A stretch of DNA of 64,000 nt from the NCBI GenBank assembly GCA_017410325.1, contig JAFQRA010000021.1, positions 177,706 through 241,705 of the forward strand, given 5' to 3'. The notes under the pieces were generated by a model that was not told the DNA's origin, made no database searches, and saw nothing but the letters and a program-made list of their open reading frames with translations. Numbering within the stretch: the stretch's first letter is position 1; the number at the start of each line of letters is the position of its first letter. Positions 33,434 through 42,699 of this stretch are shown here, piece by piece. The translations under genes and the position numbers were made by a program. Source of the DNA: Clostridia bacterium. Lineage in GTDB: Bacteria; Bacillota; Clostridia; Oscillospirales; Acutalibacteraceae.

Positions 33434-33862
33434 TTATTTATATGCTTTTAATATATCCACCGCTTCGATGTAGCCGTCAAAGCCCTTGCCTTTGACAGTT
33501 GCTATACAAGCCGCGCGTATATACGAAACCTTGCGGAAATCCTCTCTTGTGTCGGGGTCGGAGATATGCACCTCAACTGTGGGGATACTGACGGTTTTAA
33601 CTGCATCAAGCAGGGCAACGCTCGTGTGGGTGTATGCGCCGGGGTTGATGACTATTCCGTCAAATTTGCCGTAGGCCTGCTGAATTTTATCAACAAGACA
33701 GCCCTCGTGGTTGGACTGATAAAACTCGGTCTCAATCCCGCTTTTTTCGCAGTAGTCGGAAATCAGCTTACATAAATCGGCGTAGGTTTTACTGCCGTAA
33801 ATGTGGGGCTCGCGTATGCCGAGCATATTCAGGTTAGGACCGTTTATAATGAGTATTTTCAT
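33434..33862 (-). CDS. aroQ: Type II 3-dehydroquinate dehydratase
   Basis: Third step of the shikimate pathway, dehydrating 3-dehydroquinate to 3-dehydroshikimate. 142 residues, normal for the type II dodecameric enzyme. Motifs: IINGPNLNMLGIREPHIYG with the catalytic Tyr, QSNHEGCLVDKI, INPGAYTHTSVALLDA and VEVHISDP with the catalytic His. Its ATG overlaps the stop of the AroE-AroK gene by four bases (ATGA), so translation is coupled. It is the last gene of the aromatic operon. Confidence 0.97.
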   Translation of the reverse strand: MKILIINGPNLNMLGIREPHIYGSKTYADLCKLISDYCEKSGIETEFYQSNHEGCLVDKIQQAYGKFDGIVINPGAYTHTSVALLDAVKTVSIPTVEVHISDPDTREDFRKVSYIRAACIATVKGKGFDGYIEAVDILKAYK

Positions 33863-35104: not shown

Positions 35105-36247
35105 TTATACGATTTCTGAGTAACTGCCAAGGTAGGTGAAGTTGTCAAGCTCCGTTTCAAGCTCACATATAAGCTGCTTGAGGGCAGGGGAGTAAACCGA
35201 GGTGCCTACGTCAAAATAGAACATAAACTCAAAGTCGCTGCCCGGTATGGGACGGCTTTCAAGCTTTGTCATATTGATACCGTGTGCATAGAAACGGGAA
35301 ATAATTTTGTAAAGCGAGCCCGGCTTATGGGGAAGGATGAGCATAAGGCTTGTTCTGTCCGCGCCGGGATAAATTTCGGGCTTTTTTGAAATGCAGATAA
35401 AGCGCGTGTAATTACTGCCTTTATTCTGCACGGCTCTTTTGAGCACGGTCAAGCCGTAAAGAGCGGCACATTCCGAGGAGCCGAGGGCCGCAATATCGCC
35501 TCTGTCGCTTTGCGCAACAGCCTGTGCGGCAAGCGCCGTGTTGGCGTAGGCGGTTGTTTTAACACCGTCAAGGGAGCCCAGAAAATCGCTCGACTGGCTG
35601 AGTGCCTGCTCGTGGGAAATAATTTCCTTTATATCCTCGAATTTCGTGCCGGGCTTCACAAGCAGGCAGTGGTTAATCTGCACTCTCGTGCTTCTCACGA
35701 TATAAAAGCTGTGCTTCATCATCAAGTCGTAAATGCTGTTGACCGAGCCTGCCGTGCTGTTTTCAATCGGCAGTACGCCGTATTTGCAAAGCCCGGATTC
35801 AACCGCGTTGAAAACGCCTTCGAACGAATTGTTATACATAATATTGGGAAGAGCAAAAAGCTTGTTGCACGCAACCTGAGCATAGGCACCCTCCGTGCCC
35901 TGGCAGGCAACGGTTGCCCTTTCGGGGAAAAGGGGAGAGGTTTCTTCCAATGCGGAAGTGATTATCTTTTCATATTTTGATTCGGGCAGAAGAAGCTTGG
36001 CCTGATAGGACTTTGAAAGATCCATCAGCAACGAAAAAATCAGCCTCGTGTTTGCCTCGTGCTCCTCGCCTGCAAGGTCGGACACGCGCTCTAACAGCGC
36101 ACGTTCTCTTGCGGGGTCGTAAATGCTCATTGAGTTTTGCTTTTTGTATTCCGCAACGCTTGCCGTCTTTTCAAGCCTCTGCCTGAACAAATTGACAAGC
36201 TGTGTATCAATACTGTCAATGTCCTGTCTAATCTGCTGAAGGTTCAT
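35105..36247 (-). CDS. pheA: Chorismate mutase-prephenate dehydratase (P-protein)
   Basis: 380 residues in three parts. Residues 1-85 are an AroQ-type chorismate mutase (LQQIRQDIDSIDTQLVNLFRQR, VAEYKK). Residues about 105-285 are prephenate dehydratase (ATVACQGTEGAYAQVA, the ENSTAGSVNSIYDLM motif and SNYTRFICIS). The C-terminal part is an ACT domain (SLMLILPHKPGSLYKIISRF ... TKLESRPIPGSDFEFMFYFD) that would bind phenylalanine for feedback control. The ATG at 36247 follows the aroC stop by one base and uses GGAGAA inside aroC; a longer frame from 36265 overlaps aroC and is less likely. Confidence 0.96.
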   Translation of the reverse strand: MNLQQIRQDIDSIDTQLVNLFRQRLEKTASVAEYKKQNSMSIYDPARERALLERVSDLAGEEHEANTRLIFSLLMDLSKSYQAKLLLPESKYEKIITSALEETSPLFPERATVACQGTEGAYAQVACNKLFALPNIMYNNSFEGVFNAVESGLCKYGVLPIENSTAGSVNSIYDLMMKHSFYIVRSTRVQINHCLLVKPGTKFEDIKEIISHEQALSQSSDFLGSLDGVKTTAYANTALAAQAVAQSDRGDIAALGSSECAALYGLTVLKRAVQNKGSNYTRFICISKKPEIYPGADRTSLMLILPHKPGSLYKIISRFYAHGINMTKLESRPIPGSDFEFMFYFDVGTSVYSPALKQLICELETELDNFTYLGSYSEIV

Positions 36248-36248
36248 A

Positions 36249-37337
36249 TTATCTGTTTTCTCCAATCATCATATCGGCTATGGTCAGTGCCGCTGCAGCT
36301 TCAACCACGGGTACGGCACGCTGAACTATGCACGGGTCGTGTCTGCCGACTATGTTAAGCGTTGTGTTCTCTTTATTCTTTAAAGAAACCGTATTCTGCG
36401 TCTTGTAAATTGAAGGTGTGGGCTTGAATGCAACCCTGAAAACCAGCGGCATCGCGTTTGAAATACCGCCGAGTATGCCTCCGCAGTTGTTCGTGCGGGT
36501 TTTAACCGTGCCGCTGCCGTCAAAATAAAACTCGTCGTTGTTTTCGCTTCCGAAAAGCAGGGTGCTTTCAAAGCCTGCACCGAACTCAATGCCCTTTACG
36601 GCAGGAATTCCGAAAATCGTGTGTGAAATTTTGCTCTCAATTCCGCTGAACATGGGGCCGCCTATGCCTGCCGGAAGTCCGAGAACAGCACATTCAACGG
36701 TACCGCCTACCGAATCACAGTCATCTCTTGCGCAAAGTATGGCAGCTTTCATTTTTTCTTCCGCTTCGCCGTCGATGCAGGCGAACGGCTTCGATTTAAG
36801 AGCGGTCAGCTCTTCGGCTGTTATATTTACACTGTCGATTTTCTTATCTTCAATACCGTGTACGCTTGCTATGTGTGCGCCTACGGTAATACCCTTGCTT
36901 TCAAGCCACTGCATACATATTCCGCCTGCAATGCACAGCGGAGCTGTCAGCCTGCCCGAAAAATGTCCGCCGCCGCTTACATCATAGCTTTCGCCGTATT
37001 TTATTCTGGCGGTGTAATCTGCGTGGCCGGGACGGGGCTTGTCAAAAAGCTCGGAATAATCCTTGGAGCGCTGATTGCTGTTGTATATAACGGCGCGAAC
37101 GGTTGTTCCGTCTGTTTTACCGTCGGTGATACCTGACAGAAAAACAACCTTGTCCGCTTCTTTTCTTTGTGTTGAAAATTCGTCTCTGCCCGGAGCGCGT
37201 CTTGCCATAAATGCGGCAAGCTTTTCCCGGTCAATCTCAAAGCCTGCGGGAAAGCCGTCAACCGTAACGCCGATTTCGGGAGAATGTGACCCGCCGAATA
37301 TAGATATTTTAATGTTTTCACCTGTGGAGGATTCCAT
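36249..37337 (-). CDS. aroC: Chorismate synthase
   Basis: 362 residues. FMN-dependent enzyme making chorismate from EPSP. Family signatures: FGGSHSPEIGVTVDGFPAG at the start, RRAPGRDEFSTQRKE, RPGHADYTARIKYG, SGGGHFSGRLTAP, the GIPAVKGIEFGAGFE segment and TRTNNCGGILGGISNAMPL. Start ATG with GAGGTG ribosome site, 11 bases after the aroA stop. Fifth structural gene of the operon. Confidence 0.97.
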   Translation of the reverse strand: MESSTGENIKISIFGGSHSPEIGVTVDGFPAGFEIDREKLAAFMARRAPGRDEFSTQRKEADKVVFLSGITDGKTDGTTVRAVIYNSNQRSKDYSELFDKPRPGHADYTARIKYGESYDVSGGGHFSGRLTAPLCIAGGICMQWLESKGITVGAHIASVHGIEDKKIDSVNITAEELTALKSKPFACIDGEAEEKMKAAILCARDDCDSVGGTVECAVLGLPAGIGGPMFSGIESKISHTIFGIPAVKGIEFGAGFESTLLFGSENNDEFYFDGSGTVKTRTNNCGGILGGISNAMPLVFRVAFKPTPSIYKTQNTVSLKNKENTTLNIVGRHDPCIVQRAVPVVEAAAALTIADMMIGENR

Positions 37338-37348
37338 AGCGCACCTCG

Positions 37349-38557
37349 TTAATCTGTAATTACCTTACCGCCTAAAGCTTTGAACTCTTCAAAAAAAGTG
37401 GGGTAGGATTTATTTACGGCCTCACAGCCGTTGATTACCGTTTCGTTTTCGCTTGCTGCCGCAGCAATTGCCGCCGCCATTACTATGCGGTGGTCGTTGA
37501 AGGACTCAACCGTGCCGCCTGTCAGCGTTCCCGTGCCGTAAACTGTAAGCGTATCGTCCGTTATTTCGGCTTGTCCGCCGAGATTGTTAATCATCTCTTT
37601 TGTAGAAAGCAGTCTGTCGCTTTCCTTGATTTTCAGCCTTGCGGCATTGTAAAACACGGTTGTTGCCTTGAAAAAGCACGCCGTAACCGCAAGCACGGGT
37701 ACGAGGTCGGGTATATTTCCGACGTCAATTCTGATATCCGAGCCGTATTTTTGCGCGATTTCGGCAACTGCCCTGTCGCCCTGTGCAGTATTGTCTGTCA
37801 AGCCAAAACACTTTACATTATTGCCTCCAATTACATCGGCACAAATAAAGAATGCTGAGTTTGACCAGTCGCCTTCTACCGTGTATTTTTCGGGCGAAAT
37901 ATAGCCGTTGTTTTCAAAAATCCTTATCTGATTTTCTGTAAATTCTGTTTTGATTCCGAAGTCGGAAAGCACGGACAAAGTCATTTCAATATACGGCCTT
38001 GACTGGATTTCACCAACTACCGTAACCGTTGATTCTGCGTGGTTTTGGGGGAGCGCCAGCAACAGACCGCTTATGAACTGCGAGCTTACACTTCCGTCAA
38101 TGACATATTCACCCGATTCAAGCTTTCCACTTACTGTTAAGGGGATGGCATTACCGCTTGTGTGGCAGCCGTGTAAGCACAGTGCGTTGCACAGCTCGCC
38201 TATGGGTCTTTCGGGTAATCTGCCGCTGCCGTAAAGTGAAACTGCTTTACCGAGCGAAGCGGCAACAGGGAGCATAAAGCGGAGCGTCGAGCCGCTTTCA
38301 CCGCAGTTGAGTTCTGCATTTTCGGTTGAGTCTGCTATCGGCTCAACGAAAAAGCCCTTAGTCGTTCTTTCAATTTTTGCACCGAGCCTTCTCAGACACT
38401 CTGCCGTAGCGTCAATATCGGCGGATGTGGTTGAACAGATAACTTCCGTCGGCTTGTCGCTGAGTGCCGCGCAGATTAACGCACGGTGCGCAACCGATTT
38501 TGAAGCAGGTGCATTAACTTCACCGCAAAGGGGAGAGGGCTGAATAATTGCTTTCAT
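37349..38557 (-). CDS. aroA: 3-phosphoshikimate 1-carboxyvinyltransferase (EPSP synthase)
   Basis: 402 residues; transfers enolpyruvate from PEP to shikimate-3-phosphate. Motifs: APASKSVAHRALICAALS at the N-terminus, ELNCGESGSTLRFMLPVAA, YGSGRLPERPIGEL, SSQFISGLLLALP, EGDWSNSAFFICA, KIKESDRLLSTKEMI and FNDHRIVMAAAIAAA. The LNCGESGSTLRF segment has Glu where many enzymes have Asn-Ala-Gly-Thr spacing; it is close to the class II type but glyphosate sensitivity cannot be told. The ribosome site is weak and overlaps the aroB stop region. Confidence 0.96.
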   Translation of the reverse strand: MKAIIQPSPLCGEVNAPASKSVAHRALICAALSDKPTEVICSTTSADIDATAECLRRLGAKIERTTKGFFVEPIADSTENAELNCGESGSTLRFMLPVAASLGKAVSLYGSGRLPERPIGELCNALCLHGCHTSGNAIPLTVSGKLESGEYVIDGSVSSQFISGLLLALPQNHAESTVTVVGEIQSRPYIEMTLSVLSDFGIKTEFTENQIRIFENNGYISPEKYTVEGDWSNSAFFICADVIGGNNVKCFGLTDNTAQGDRAVAEIAQKYGSDIRIDVGNIPDLVPVLAVTACFFKATTVFYNAARLKIKESDRLLSTKEMINNLGGQAEITDDTLTVYGTGTLTGGTVESFNDHRIVMAAAIAAAASENETVINGCEAVNKSYPTFFEEFKALGGKVITD

Positions 38558-38563
38558 ATTTTA

Positions 38564-39622
38564 TCACTTCAATCCGAGTGTAATAATATCTTTCAGTTCA
38601 TCGTAATCGCATTTTTGCAGTACGCTTTCACCCTTGCCCGCGGGAATGACGAGCGTTATTTTGCCGTGGGCATTCTTTTTATCTTTAAGCGTGACGTTGT
38701 ATACCTCGTCAATGCCGTAGGGACATTCAAAGGGAAGGCGATATTTTTTCAGTAATTCAACAAGAATATCAAAAGTTTTGCTTTCGCACTTACCCAGAGC
38801 GATTGCGGCTTTGGTGATTGCCGCCATACCTATTGCAACCGCACTGCCGTGGGGAGTGGTATAGCCGCTTAAATTTTCCACTGCGTGGGCAACCGTGTGG
38901 CCGAAGTTGAGAAACATTCTCTCTCCTTTGTCAAATTCGTCTGCTTCAACGACCCTTGCCTTTATTGCTACACAGCGTGCAACAATTTCTTCAATATCCG
39001 TGTTGCTTTCAGTAAGTATATCAAGAAATCCGCCATCGCAGAACATTCCGTATTTTATAACCTCTGCCATACCGTTGGAAAATTCCTCATCGGGCAGGGT
39101 ATCAAAGGTTGCCGTGTCGCAAAGCACGAGCTTCGGCTGATAAAAAGCACCGGCTAAATTTTTTCCCGCTTCAAGGTCTATTGCCGTTTTTCCGCCTACG
39201 GAGGAGTCAACCGCCGCAAGCAGGGTGGTGGGAAGCTGAACGAAATTCGTGCCCCTCATATAAACGGCTGCCGCAAAGCCGCAAAGGTCGCCGACAACAC
39301 CGCCGCCAAGGGCGAAAAAAGTGTCGGTACGGCTGAATGCGTTTTCTGCCGCGAATTCAAGTATCGCCAGCAGGTTTTCGGCGGATTTAGAGCTTTCACC
39401 GTGTGGTATCACAAAGCTGAATACCTCAAAGCCCGCTTCTTTAAGGGAAGAACTCACTTTTTCGAGATATAATGCCGCAACATTGTCGTCGCTTATTATA
39501 AGCGCCTTGCCGTCAAGCCCGAGTGCCTTTGCCTCTTCACCCGCTTTATCAAGCAGACCCTTGCCGATTTTTACTCTGTAGGGCTTGCCTGCTTTAATGT
39601 CAATTTTTTTCGTCACTGTCAA
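38564..39622 (-). CDS. aroB: 3-dehydroquinate synthase
   Basis: 352 residues; NAD-dependent cyclisation of DAHP to 3-dehydroquinate. Motifs: FVIPHGESSKSAENL, ALGGGVVGDLCGFAAAVYMRG, QLPTTLLAAVDSSVGGKTAIDL, the metal site in EVIKYG and NFGHTVAHAVE, and HGSAVAIGM. The start is either TTG at 39622 or GTG at 39616 (MTKKIDI); both lie inside the end of tyrA and follow AAGGAAG. The 23-base overlap indicates tight coupling with tyrA. Confidence 0.96.
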   Translation of the reverse strand: MTVTKKIDIKAGKPYRVKIGKGLLDKAGEEAKALGLDGKALIISDDNVAALYLEKVSSSLKEAGFEVFSFVIPHGESSKSAENLLAILEFAAENAFSRTDTFFALGGGVVGDLCGFAAAVYMRGTNFVQLPTTLLAAVDSSVGGKTAIDLEAGKNLAGAFYQPKLVLCDTATFDTLPDEEFSNGMAEVIKYGMFCDGGFLDILTESNTDIEEIVARCVAIKARVVEADEFDKGERMFLNFGHTVAHAVENLSGYTTPHGSAVAIGMAAITKAAIALGKCESKTFDILVELLKKYRLPFECPYGIDEVYNVTLKDKKNAHGKITLVIPAGKGESVLQKCDYDELKDIITLGLK

Positions 39623-40442
39623 CCGCTTCCTTCATAAGCCTGCCCTCACGCAGCAGGTCTCTGATTTTTTCTTCATCGTTTTCTTTTAAAGCATCGCTGT
39701 ATTTCTTAAGGTTTTCTATCATCAGGTCAATTTCCGTAATAAGGTTTTCGGAATTTTCAAGGAAAAGCTGTGTCCACATATTTTCGTTAAGCCACGCAAC
39801 ACGGGTTAAATCTTTGTAGCTGCCTGCGGAAAAGCCCTTGTGCACCTTTGAACGGGGGCTTTTGACGTATGCGTTTGATACCACGTGAGCCAGCTGTGAG
39901 GTGTAGGCAATGTTTACGTCGTGCACCTCGGGTGTCGATACCGTAACCGTGCCGAAGCCTGCCTTGAGCAGTACGTCTCTTAAATCTGCCAGCAGGTGCA
40001 TATCCTCGTTGGGCTTGGGTACAAGTATCATCGTTGCGCCGTCAAAGAGAGTATCTTTTGAATTTTTAAGCCCTGAAAACTGCGTACCTGCCATCGGGTG
40101 ACCGCCCACAAAGTTGAAGCCGTTTTCTTCCGCAATTGTGTAGCACGGGGGACAGACCGTAGCTTTTGTACCGCAAAGGTCAACCACGGTTGCGCCTTTT
40201 TTTACCTTTTTGGAAATCTTATCTACATATTCTACCACAGCATTGGGGTAAAGTGCAACGAAAATATAATCACATTCCGATACTGATTTGTCATCAAGCA
40301 CTCCGTCGGTAATTCCGGCCATTACCGCATAGTCCGTAACAGCGGTGTTTATGTCGTAGCCGAATACCGTTTCGTTTGCTCTTTTAAATGCTTTTGCAAG
40401 TGAGCCTCCTATAAGACCGAGGCCGCATATACCGATTTTCAT
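39600..40442 (-). CDS. tyrA: Prephenate dehydrogenase
   Basis: 280 residues; oxidises prephenate to 4-hydroxyphenylpyruvate for tyrosine. N-terminal NAD-binding loop GICGLGLIGGSLAKAFK, then VDLCGTKATVC, the GGHPMAGTQFSG substrate motif with the catalytic His, and a helical C-terminal domain (VAWLNENMWTQLFLENSENL). There is no ACT domain and no fused mutase. AAAGGAG lies ahead of the ATG. Second structural gene in the operon. Confidence 0.95.
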   Translation of the reverse strand: MKIGICGLGLIGGSLAKAFKRANETVFGYDINTAVTDYAVMAGITDGVLDDKSVSECDYIFVALYPNAVVEYVDKISKKVKKGATVVDLCGTKATVCPPCYTIAEENGFNFVGGHPMAGTQFSGLKNSKDTLFDGATMILVPKPNEDMHLLADLRDVLLKAGFGTVTVSTPEVHDVNIAYTSQLAHVVSNAYVKSPRSKVHKGFSAGSYKDLTRVAWLNENMWTQLFLENSENLITEIDLMIENLKKYSDALKENDEEKIRDLLREGRLMKEAVDSDEKN

Positions 40443-40460: not shown

Positions 40461-41471
40461 TCAGTCTAACTCTGCAACTGCCTTGCGTATTGCGAATACA
40501 CGCCTTGCAACGTCCTCAAACTGCTCGGGTGTAAGTGACTGCGGGCCGTCGCACAGTGCGTGCTGCGGGTCGTTGTGTACCTCTATCATAAGTCCGTCTG
40601 CGCCTGCTGCGGCTGCCGCCATAGCCATCGGCTTGACGAGCCTTGCAATACCGCTTGCGTGGCTGGGGTCAATAACTACGGGCAGGTGAGTGAGCTCCTT
40701 TAGCATAGGCACTGCGGAAAGGTCAAGCGTGTTTCTCGTGTAGGTTTCAAAGGTGCGTATTCCTCTTTCGCACAAAATGATGTTTTCATTGCCGCCCGCC
40801 ATAATGTATTCGGCGCTCATCAGCAATTCCTTGAGGGTATTTGCAAGTCCTCTTTTAAGGAGAATGGGCTTGTTCGTTCTGCCGAGCTCCTTGAGCAGCT
40901 CAAAGTTCTGCATATTGCGTGCGCCGACCTGAATAACGTCAACCTTTTCAAACAGAGGCAGGTGGTGTGCGCTCATAATTTCGGTTACTATCGGCATACC
41001 TGTCTTTTCCTTGGCTTCAAGGAGAAGGTCAATACCCTCTGCGTGAAGGCCCTGGAAATCGTAGGGTGAGGTTCTCGGCTTGAAAGCACCGCCGCGCAGG
41101 AGTGTTGCACCGCCTGCCTGCACCTTTGTTGCAACTTCAAGAATCTGTGCTTCGCTTTCTACCGAGCAGGGGCCGGCGATAATGGCGAACTCGCCGCCGC
41201 CGATTTTAACGCCCGAGCAGTCAACAATCGTGTCGTCGGGGTGGAACTTTCTGTTTGCACTCTTGAAGGGGTCTGAAATTCGCTTAACGCTTTCAACTAT
41301 ATCCAATCCTTCAATAAGGTCAGTGTCGATTGCCGTAGTGTTGCCGACAAGGCCGAGTATGGTCTGATATTCGCCCTTGGAAATATGAACAAGAACCTTC
41401 TGTTCTTCAAGCCAGCTTATAAGGTTGTCAAGCTGGTTCTGTGTTGCGTTGCTTTTAAGTACTACTACCAT
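40461..41471 (-). CDS. aroF: DAHP synthase (3-deoxy-7-phosphoheptulonate synthase)
   Basis: 336 residues; commits PEP and erythrose-4-phosphate to the shikimate pathway. An N-terminal ferredoxin-like regulatory domain of about 70 residues (VVVLKSNATQNQLDNLISWL, GDTTAID-type strand) is followed by the type I-beta catalytic domain: FAIIAGPCSVESEAQIL, LRGGAFKPRTSPYDFQG, QVGARNMQNFELLKELG, LLKRGLANT, CERGIRTFE and VIDPSHASG. The N-terminal domain of this group senses aromatic end products. An upstream frame begins at 41501, but AAAGGTG precedes the ATG at 41471. First structural gene, downstream of an attenuator. Confidence 0.95.
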   Translation of the reverse strand: MVVVLKSNATQNQLDNLISWLEEQKVLVHISKGEYQTILGLVGNTTAIDTDLIEGLDIVESVKRISDPFKSANRKFHPDDTIVDCSGVKIGGGEFAIIAGPCSVESEAQILEVATKVQAGGATLLRGGAFKPRTSPYDFQGLHAEGIDLLLEAKEKTGMPIVTEIMSAHHLPLFEKVDVIQVGARNMQNFELLKELGRTNKPILLKRGLANTLKELLMSAEYIMAGGNENIILCERGIRTFETYTRNTLDLSAVPMLKELTHLPVVIDPSHASGIARLVKPMAMAAAAAGADGLMIEVHNDPQHALCDGPQSLTPEQFEDVARRVFAIRKAVAELD

Positions 41472-41490
41472 TTTTAAAACACCTTTCAAT

Positions 41491-41532
41491 AAAAAAATCA
41501 AGAGCCCTGCAGTGAATTTACTGCAAAGCTCT
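41491..41532 (-). terminator. Attenuator terminator of the aromatic operon
   Basis: On the minus strand AGAGCTTTGCAGT (from 41532) pairs over 13 positions, two of them G-T, with ACTGCAGGGCTCT (to 41501), with a 6-base loop and then TTGATTTTTTTA. It ends 20 bases before aroF. An upstream TTTGCTGC (41568-41575 region) can pair with GCAGTAAA of the stem, offering an antiterminator. Confidence 0.85.
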
Positions 41533-41591
41533 TTAAAATCGCTTTATAAATCTGCCTTTAATAAAGGCGCAGCAAAAATCACTTCTACTGT

Positions 41592-41660
41592 TTATTTCTC
41601 ACCGAAATAAAAGTAAAAGTAAAAAAACTCGTATGCAGTTGCATTGGTTCTGCAAAGCAT
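41592..41660 (-). CDS. Phe/Tyr-rich leader peptide of the aromatic operon
   Basis: A 22-codon reading frame with ATG at 41660-41658 and TAA at 41594-41592. A GGGAGA ribosome site lies nine bases before the ATG. Residues 10-19 read YEFFYFYFYF, so nine of 22 residues are Phe (5) or Tyr (4). It lies just after a consensus promoter and about 60 bases before the terminator hairpin that precedes aroF. This is the layout of a ribosome-mediated attenuation leader, as in pheA/pheST of enteric bacteria. Stalling at Phe/Tyr codons when charged tRNAs are scarce would favour readthrough into the aromatic operon. Too short for ordinary gene finders. Confidence 0.85.
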   Translation of the reverse strand: MLCRTNATAYEFFYFYFYFGEK

Positions 41661-41693
41661 AATACTGCGTCTCCCGTGTCAAAGATTGTCTGC

Positions 41694-41722
41694 ATTATAC
41701 ACCCGTAATTTTTGAATGTCAA
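41694..41722 (-). promoter_or_regulatory. Consensus promoter of the aromatic operon
   Basis: Minus strand TTGACA (41717-41722), 17-base spacer, TATAAT (41694-41699): a perfect sigma-A match. Confidence 0.93.
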
Positions 41723-41838
41723 TAGTTTTTGCAAAAATAATTTTATCGCTTTCAATCGCTAAAGTATTTGTAGGTAATATTCAATTTGGTATTGCAAAAG
41801 CAATGTATATTTGTTAATATAATATAGTTAGAAATAAG

Positions 41839-42699
41839 GTGATTGTTATAAAAGCTAAATTAATTGATCTGCATACTCACTCGACCTGCTCGGACGGGTC
41901 AATGACCCCGACCGAATTGGTAAGGCACGCGGCTGAAAATTCGCTTGCCGCAATAGCTATGACAGACCACGACACCGTCAGCGGTGTTGAGGAAGCTTTA
42001 AGGGCAGGGGAACGGTACGGCATTGAGGTTGTGCCCGCAATTGAATTTTCGGTAAAATCCGAAACCGAAACTCATATACTCGGTTTTTTTATTGATATTC
42101 ATAATCCCGTTTTACAGGGAATACTCAGCGAAATTATTGAAAAGCGCATTGAGCGCAACGCGATGACCGCAAAGCTTCTTCAAAACCTCGGCTTTGACGT
42201 TACGCTTGAAGAAGCGAAGTCGCTGGCACCCGGCGGTGTGGTCGGCAGGGCGCATTTTGCACGGGTTATGATGAACAAGGGCTTCGTTTCTTCCGTTAAG
42301 GAGGCTTTTGAAAAATACCTGGCATCCGGCAAGCCTGCCTATTTCGGCAACCAGAAGCTGGAGGCGAAAACGGCAATTGAAGCCATACATTCCGCAGGCG
42401 GCGTTGCGTTTCTTGCACACCCTCATCTTATAAAAATTCCCGATGAGAGATTGGAAAAATTTCTTGATGAGCTTAAAACCTTCGGCCTTGACGGACTTGA
42501 GGGCTATTATACCGACTATGACGAGGAAATGCAGGCGAAGTTTCAGGCTATGGCAGAAAGGCACGGTCTGGGAATAAGCGGCGGAACGGATTTTCACGCA
42601 CAGATGAAGCCCCATATAGCTATCGGCAAGGGGCTTGGCAATATGGCAATACCCTACAGCGTTCTTGAAAAAATAAAAGAATCAGTCAGCAAAAAATAA
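41839..42699 (+). CDS. PHP-domain phosphoesterase (TrpH/YciV-like)
   Basis: About 286 residues of the polymerase-and-histidinol-phosphatase family, most like YciV/TrpH enzymes that hydrolyse 3',5'-nucleotide bisphosphates or RNA 5' ends. Metal-site motifs: DLHTHSTCSDGS, AMTDHDTVSG, VPAIEFS, AFLAHPHLIKI and GGTDFHA. The start is odd. The only standard start codon is a GTG at 41839 that overlaps AAGGTGA, itself the best ribosome site. Initiation at ATA (41848) or ATT (41842) would suit that site better and give the usual family start. Confidence 0.9.
   Translation: MIVIKAKLIDLHTHSTCSDGSMTPTELVRHAAENSLAAIAMTDHDTVSGVEEALRAGERYGIEVVPAIEFSVKSETETHILGFFIDIHNPVLQGILSEIIEKRIERNAMTAKLLQNLGFDVTLEEAKSLAPGGVVGRAHFARVMMNKGFVSSVKEAFEKYLASGKPAYFGNQKLEAKTAIEAIHSAGGVAFLAHPHLIKIPDERLEKFLDELKTFGLDGLEGYYTDYDEEMQAKFQAMAERHGLGISGGTDFHAQMKPHIAIGKGLGNMAIPYSVLEKIKESVSKK

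Follow-up and report, generated by a model that had tools for sequence, protein, structure and literature searches.

Classical attenuators have a layout of four RNA segments with 1:2, 2:3 and 3:4 pairings. The enterobacterial pheA/pheST and trp leader attenuators use these pairings and respond to one amino acid each. In Firmicutes the control of aromatic genes is usually ascribed to T-boxes and TRAP. Two reports describe the same classical leader-peptide attenuation in Firmicutes, with His codons instead, in bacilli upstream of hisS/hisZ paralogs and, in 17 species, upstream of his operons (PMC2965389, PMC9413887). In PMC1262725 attenuators of actinobacteria are described, and no aminoacyl-tRNA synthetase gene of Firmicutes is placed under classical attenuation. 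The closest published item found, a motif upstream of aroF in Acholeplasma named uORFC-13-1, combines a short ORF with one or more Phe codons, a possible promoter, a ribosome site and an intrinsic terminator adjoining the gene for DAHP synthase (DAHPS), and its authors propose attenuation; they report 24 sequences, from Acholeplasma and environmental sources only, with "at least one phenylalanine residue" (PMC8632094).

The locus described here lies in a window of 64,000 nucleotides (the whole stretch analysed) from a Clostridia bacterium of the Acutalibacteraceae. The intergenic region between the divergent genes aroF (minus strand, 40461–41471) and a PHP-type phosphoesterase gene (plus strand, 41839–42699) is the site of what is very probably, judging from sequence and folding models, a ribosome-mediated transcription attenuator. 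A promoter, a ribosome site, a 22-codon ORF, a 15-nt antiterminator strand, a 14-bp hairpin with seven U's and aroF follow each other on the minus strand (Table 1). A leader peptide, control codons, the three pairings and a terminator before a biosynthetic operon are shared with the enterobacterial pheA/pheST and trp attenuators. The locus differs from them in that it would respond to Phe and Tyr jointly, in that a whole shikimate-Phe-Tyr operon follows, in belonging to another phylum and in that the control codons themselves are an arm of the 1:2 hairpin. T-boxes (RF00230) likewise attenuate transcription by reading tRNA charging, but bind the tRNA directly, without a peptide. The differences from uORFC-13-1 as reported are the occurrence in Clostridia, the dense mixture of Phe and Tyr codons, sometimes with Trp, and an antiterminator that co-variation supports. 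The literature searched, which lay mostly outside subscription journals and leaves absence unproven, yielded no account of a clostridial Phe/Tyr attenuator ahead of DAHPS.

Table 1. Features of the aroF leader and of the downstream operon (window positions).
Feature	Position	Strand	Details
Sigma-70-type promoter TTGACA-17-TATAAT	41694..41722	-	-35 at 41722-41717, -10 at 41699-41694; 12/12 consensus
Leader ribosome-binding site GGGAGA	41670..41675	-	From sequence
Leader peptide gene MLCRTNATAYEFFYFYFYFGEK, 22 codons	41592..41660	-	ATG at 41660, stop at 41594-41592
Control codons Tyr10, Phe12, Phe13, Tyr14, Phe15, Tyr16, Phe17, Tyr18, Phe19	41604..41633	-	
1:2 hairpin	41579..41622	-	Arms 41622-41604 and 41598-41579; in MFE and centroid fold; duplex against shuffles p = 0.005
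Antiterminator 5' strand AGUGAUUUUUGCUGC, 15 nt	41569..41583	-	Invariant in 6 genus sequences; duplex p = 0.025
Small hairpin GCCUUU-AUU-AAAGGC	41554..41568	-	Directly 3' of antiterminator strand; possible spacer element
Antiterminator 3' strand GCAGUAAAUUCACU	41511..41524	-	Runs from the terminator 5' arm through the loop into the 3' arm
Intrinsic terminator hairpin, 14 bp	41500..41533	-	-20.4 kcal/mol
Terminator U tract, seven U's	41491..41497	-	
aroF, 3-deoxy-7-phosphoheptulonate synthase (DAHPS), first operon gene	40461..41471	-	NF006421, TIGR01361 over cut-off
tyrA, prephenate dehydrogenase	39600..40442	-	NF006307 E 1.7e-49, below its cut-off
aroB, 3-dehydroquinate synthase	38564..39622	-	TIGR01357 over cut-off
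aroA, EPSP synthase	37349..38557	-	TIGR01356 over cut-off
aroC, chorismate synthase	36249..37337	-	TIGR00033 over cut-off
pheA, fused chorismate mutase and prephenate dehydratase	35105..36265	-	NF007910 E 1.8e-61, below its cut-off
Fused aroE (residues 3-244) and aroK (about 250-407), 409 aa	33859..35088	-	TIGR00507 E 1.4e-43, NF010553 E 9.7e-31, both below cut-offs
aroQ, type II 3-dehydroquinate dehydratase	33434..33862	-	TIGR01088 over cut-off

The consensus promoter described in an earlier note on this DNA is confirmed: a scan of 41440–41900 found three sites (shuffle mean 1.9), of which only this one matches at 12 of 12 positions; the other two match at 9 of 12. Its -10 element and surroundings are conserved across six aligned genus members, and TTGACA is legible in all five rows that extend to it. 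The peptide gene with its own GGGAGA and the run YEFFYFYFYF, read by the same note, is indeed present on the minus strand. This ORF has a start, a ribosome site and a stop, from which it is predicted to be translatable, and nine codons out of ten in its control region specify Phe or Tyr, the end products of the downstream operon. All eight genus loci that contain the aroF start have an aromatic leader. Over the first 19 leader codons of seven genus loci, 12 are invariant, three have synonymous changes only and four change the residue, one of the four from Phe to Tyr. The genus mate L126 (Clostridia bacterium RGIG6257, from sheep rectum) has a DAHPS that is 99% identical. An ORF with a ribosome site and a frame kept in the genus is also what would be expected of a small protein with its own function, encoded before a fixed terminator that merely trims expression; this is hardly credible, given that peptide length and sequence vary widely among relatives while the RNA pairings persist, and it leaves the antiterminator unexplained.

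The RNA from 41690 to 41470 folds with a z of -5.4, none of 200 dinucleotide shuffles being equally good. A stem around the leader in the MFE structure (41668–41663 with 41574–41569) was dropped as a part for lack of conservation on its 5' side within the genus. The terminator hairpin with its T tract before aroF is present, as claimed, with 14 pairs counted instead of 13, and is the sole terminator-like site in 41440–41900 (shuffle mean 0.2). The upstream strand said to pair with the terminator arm, TTTGCTGC (41576–41569), is real and proved to be longer: the antiterminator duplex has about 13 pairs, against 8, and extends through the terminator loop. Within its 5' strand, GUGAUUUUUGCUGC is invariant in 8/8 genus sequences, and the spacer behind it varies. 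In L016, of the same genus, AAGUGA in the strand is replaced by AGGUGA and UUCACU in the terminator loop by UUACCU, with the pairing preserved one register over. The first arm of the 1:2 hairpin is made of the control codons UUACUUUUACUUUUAUUUC; the second lies around the stop codon and takes in 5 nt at the start of the antiterminator strand. The 1:2, 2:3 and 3:4 pairings found here are the four-segment layout of a classical attenuator. The small hairpin that follows varies in sequence within the genus and is foldable in 8/8 (3 to 6 pairs, -3.5 to -6.3 kcal/mol), which is compatible with a putative role as a spacer element.

We infer the start site, the stalling by uncharged tRNA, the kinetics and the direction of regulation as follows. 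Transcription would start near 41687 and a ribosome would enter the leader. When charged tRNA-Phe or tRNA-Tyr is scarce, the ribosome would stall on codons 10–19, masking the control codons and blocking the 1:2 hairpin; the freed strand would pair with the emerging terminator 5' arm (41524–41511), the terminator would come too late to form, and the aro operon would be transcribed. When both charged tRNAs are plentiful, the ribosome would reach the stop and leave the mRNA, after which the control codons would pair with the strand behind them and remove part of the antiterminator strand; the terminator would then form and transcription would end near 41491.

Constrained folding models support this order of events. 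For a transcript that stops at 41511, short of the terminator 3' arm, a ribosome on codons 12–19 brings both antiterminator halves to 0.86–0.96, against 0.55 for the proximal and 0.06 for the distal half with no ribosome. The distal half reaches just 0.57 with the ribosome on codon 10, and the values for codons 12–19 drop to 0.56–0.93 when the transcript is five bases longer (41506). With the ribosome on the stop codon the proximal half still stands at 0.95 and the distal half at 0.49, so that arrival of the ribosome at the stop seems insufficient for termination at this locus and its release seems to be required. The antiterminator strand of this locus lies just behind the leader stop, and its blocking seems to need both that release and the 1:2 hairpin. 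The full RNA at equilibrium adopts the terminator fold in every ribosome state tried, so that the switch must be kinetic. Prediction and co-variation together indicate that the antiterminator excludes the terminator and is placed to stay free beside a stalled ribosome. The reading as leader-peptide attenuation put forward in the earlier note largely holds, given the leader, the terminator and the co-varying antiterminator; the ribosome would stall on uncharged Phe or Tyr tRNA.

The operon had been called complete, and it does run through chorismate and adds prephenate dehydratase and prephenate dehydrogenase; the word is slightly overstated because there is no aminotransferase among the eight genes. 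Note that the names tyrA, pheA and aroE-aroK rest on matches below curated cut-offs. The fused aroE and aroK of this operon are apparently separate genes in the relatives L234 and L235, as seen by eye. Downstream gene order was inspected by eye in four relatives and was kept out of the counts.

The sample of regions upstream of DAHPS genes comprises 8 loci of the genus, 48 of the family, 60 of other families in the class and 80 of named relatives. The genus loci come from the 9 of 11 genomes with a DAHPS match, of which L017 is a fragment without the gene start. The others are the top of a similarity ranking, not a random sample: 48 from 132 genomes with a match for the family, 60 from 184 for the class, and the best 80 for the named relatives. 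From the 196 loci with a gene start, three were dropped for too little upstream sequence, leaving 193. Aromatic-rich leaders (Trp counted too) precede 139 of these 193 genes, four being repeats; as the loci are top-ranked and non-random, the family and the class may hold fewer leaders than this 72%. By group they number 8/8 in the genus, 35/48 in the family, 38/59 in the rest of the class and 58/78 in the named relatives, where four repeat unnamed loci; 54 of the 193 loci are without a strong leader. The start is ATG in 137 of 140 leaders, and 111 have a Shine-Dalgarno match of 4 or more. Other DAHPS copies, checked for specialised leaders, gave 20 upstream regions; 8 have a leader in which five or more of 10 residues are aromatic and 12 do not, a count that says little because it includes the best-scoring copies of three genomes (L219, L220, L229).

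Leaders were chosen by a score that rewards aromatic density, and chance was controlled at the first 115 usable loci by taking, on both strands and in shuffles, the short ORF with the highest Phe/Tyr density. The earlier note had suggested looking in relatives for a short Phe/Tyr-rich ORF before aroF. A short ORF in which six or more of 10 residues are Phe/Tyr is found at 77/115 loci in sense and at 2 in antisense, and in 32/1150 shuffles; for at least 7 in 10 the numbers are 55/115, 0 and 5/1150. At 7 in 10, other residue groups reach 9 sense and 1 antisense (Ile/Leu), 2 and 0 (Leu), and 0 or 1 for the rest. The Phe/Tyr codon clusters before DAHPS are not chance.

A terminator accompanies 124 of the 139 leaders, 15 having none detected, against 11 of 35 leaderless loci (odds ratio 18, p = 2e-11, without kinship correction); it is found at 16 of 19 intermediate loci. 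The earlier note held that retention of the terminator with loss of the Phe/Tyr codons would speak against attenuation. Terminators track leaders; nine of the 11 leaderless loci with a terminator are of the kind named there, and at the other two (L043, L050) a weaker aromatic ORF is still seen.

Part of the family has a distinct leader style (L046–L051, L055, L056, L058, L061, L064) with fewer, spaced aromatic residues, for example TRFTGFYYPGYFMARAFLACAS; pairing was tested just for the few of these that pass the density cut. One Treponemataceae record and two Lentisphaerae records (the set L135, L188, L191) contain a closely related DAHPS with an aromatic leader, by either operon transfer or wrongly binned contigs. 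Four Treponema/Spirochaetales loci (L140, L181, L184, L197) have no aromatic leader.

The predicted antiterminator and terminator co-vary across relatives. The antiterminator was tested for 121 of 140 leaders, those left out having no or a weak terminator, one lying over 125 nt away from the gene, or a hairpin too close to the control codons. Compared with dinucleotide shuffles, the duplex has p<=0.05 in 89 of the 121 loci and p<=0.01 in 49, and fails the former threshold in 32. When partners were exchanged among 92 dereplicated loci, own pairs averaged -17.3 kcal/mol against a mean of -11.75 (sd 0.29) for exchanged pairs; among 18 motif-anchored loci (19 listed, 18 used after a shorter cut) the values were -11.8 and -8.3 (sd 0.47) kcal/mol. 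Both tests give p = 5e-5, the floor of 20,000 permutations, and the co-variation that the earlier note proposed to look for is thereby borne out. The own partner is among the best 5% in 37/92 loci, and in 43/92 with the arm fixed.

In the 89 loci with p<=0.05 the antiterminator strand starts at a median of 16 nt (IQR 13–21) after the last control codon; the footprint of a ribosome stalled on that codon would end about there and leave the strand roughly clear. The strand begins inside the ORF in 65 of the 89, where a ribosome reading on would cover it directly. The 1:2 pairing, established by computation at the aroF locus, is found in about half of the loci tested (p<=0.05 in 46/97, not passed in 51/97), and it shares 3 nt or more with the antiterminator strand in 80/97; these fractions are conditional, the 97 loci having been picked from the 121 by antiterminator p<=0.1 and enough sequence.

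In TnaC-type systems the nascent peptide arrests the ribosome in response to a free amino acid. The leader peptide could similarly arrest its ribosome on free Phe or Tyr, with no reading of tRNA charging, and a similar stretch does follow the control codons in the distant loci L106 (FSAGYLFCKK), L111 (FSTGYFFCKK), L112 (YGYGYFCCRK) and L200 (FSTGSFCCKK). Elsewhere, however, the number, order and register of the aromatic residues vary, the 140 leaders comprise 134 different peptides, and many recurring stretches behind the control codons (FCC, FAA, NKSKS) coincide with RNA pairing strands, all of which makes such arrest improbable.

Attenuation by stalling at the control codons has also to be weighed against a terminator run by T-box-like tRNA binding, a TRAP-like protein or an unknown ligand, with the peptide merely coupling translation. 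The genome has eight T-box matches, five of them over the cut-off, and a related DAHPS gene (L114) does carry a T-box, the only such case among 20 loci with a weak or missing leader. The aroF locus itself gave no match to a T-box (RF00230 specifier stem and antiterminator), and the gene for TRAP (TrpBP, PF02081) has 0 matches in the 96%-complete genome; among 14 control genomes B. subtilis alone matches. These two results agree with the earlier note, in which T-boxes and TRAP were set apart from the regulation of the aromatic genes here. A scan of the window at Rfam gathering scores found one match, a tRNA elsewhere. An Rfam 15 E-value scan gave 16 matches up to E 10 at the locus, all far below gathering scores, and a scan of 20 relatives gave seven up to E 1, all below gathering scores; both sets were taken as chance. 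With the strong enrichment of Phe/Tyr codons added, another regulator of this kind is very improbable, even more so than peptide arrest.

The genes behind the T-boxes of this genome are pheS, trpB, cysE and thrS (over curated cut-offs) and, below cut-offs, those for a PaaK-type ligase, a 2-isopropylmalate synthase-like protein and two acyl-CoA synthetase-like proteins. At pheS, Phe charging therefore appears to be sensed by a T-box, and at aroF by the ribosome. The T-boxes L001, L003 and L006 stand before the phenylacetate-CoA-ligase-like and the two acyl-CoA-synthetase-like proteins with an extra N-terminal part of >200 residues. The trpB behind T-box L005 occurs in a genome where trpE and trpC were not found, which suggests Trp synthesis from imported indole, or another route. 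Inspection by eye found no His leader before the his operon of the same genome, whose first gene lies ~30 nt or less after the preceding ORF. Two TIGR00118 (ilvB-type) matches in the genome are both below the cut-off, and their upstream regions yielded no candidate leader.

The choice of Phe and Tyr can be related to gene content. This type of DAHP synthase has a single match in the genome, whereas trpE and trpC, two families that match in 14/14 control genomes, have none; since the genome is 96% complete, the absence of both is likely, not certain. Phe and Tyr would then be the amino acids drawn from chorismate, and this leader has no Trp codon. The single match to this DAHPS type and the lack of trpE/trpC matches offer a reason for the earlier proposal of one peptide sensing both Phe and Tyr on behalf of the entire pathway, with sensing itself as the presumed function.

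Across relatives, Trp codons in the leader are associated with trpC. Among 75 loci with leaders of density at least 6, the genome has trpC for 12/16 Trp leaders against 11/59 Trp-free ones (p = 4.6e-5). Kinship was allowed for only by permutation within families (p = 5e-4) and by draws of one locus per family (25 families), which gave a median p of 0.03, with <0.05 in 59% of draws. For density at least 5 the counts are 15/23 and 11/67, in a table that includes the T-box locus L114. The test left out the named loci and the genus loci L010–L012 and L014–L016, and G338, G339 and G405, with sub-threshold or partial trpC matches, were scored absent. Outside the family of the window both traits vary and agree in three families (L119/L124, L121/L120, L112/L117); L119, for example, has the leader GVNYGYYY and no trpC, and its family mate L124 has SFSWGYYY and trpC. 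In three other families a single trait varies: the Trp codon in f5 and trpC in f31 and f39. The exceptions are four Trp leaders without trpC (L083, L102, L111, L118) and 11 Trp-free leaders with trpC.

By their sequences, the clostridial DAHPS leaders are a widespread, apparently undescribed family within a known mechanism, and their codon content tracks the pathway. We lean towards the view that one old attenuator family controls DAHP synthase across much of Clostridia, its codons tuned to the products drawn from chorismate, Phe and Tyr, with Trp added where it is made. E. coli has three separately regulated DAHP synthase isozymes; if this view is true, one transcript would do their work. Given the link of Trp codons to trpC, comparison can directly test how multi-amino-acid sensing evolved, and the attenuator family would let annotation state which amino acids an operon answers to. 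The survey suggests that the ribosome, instead of a T-box or TRAP, reads the first step of the aromatic pathway in many Clostridia, uncultured gut bacteria among them.
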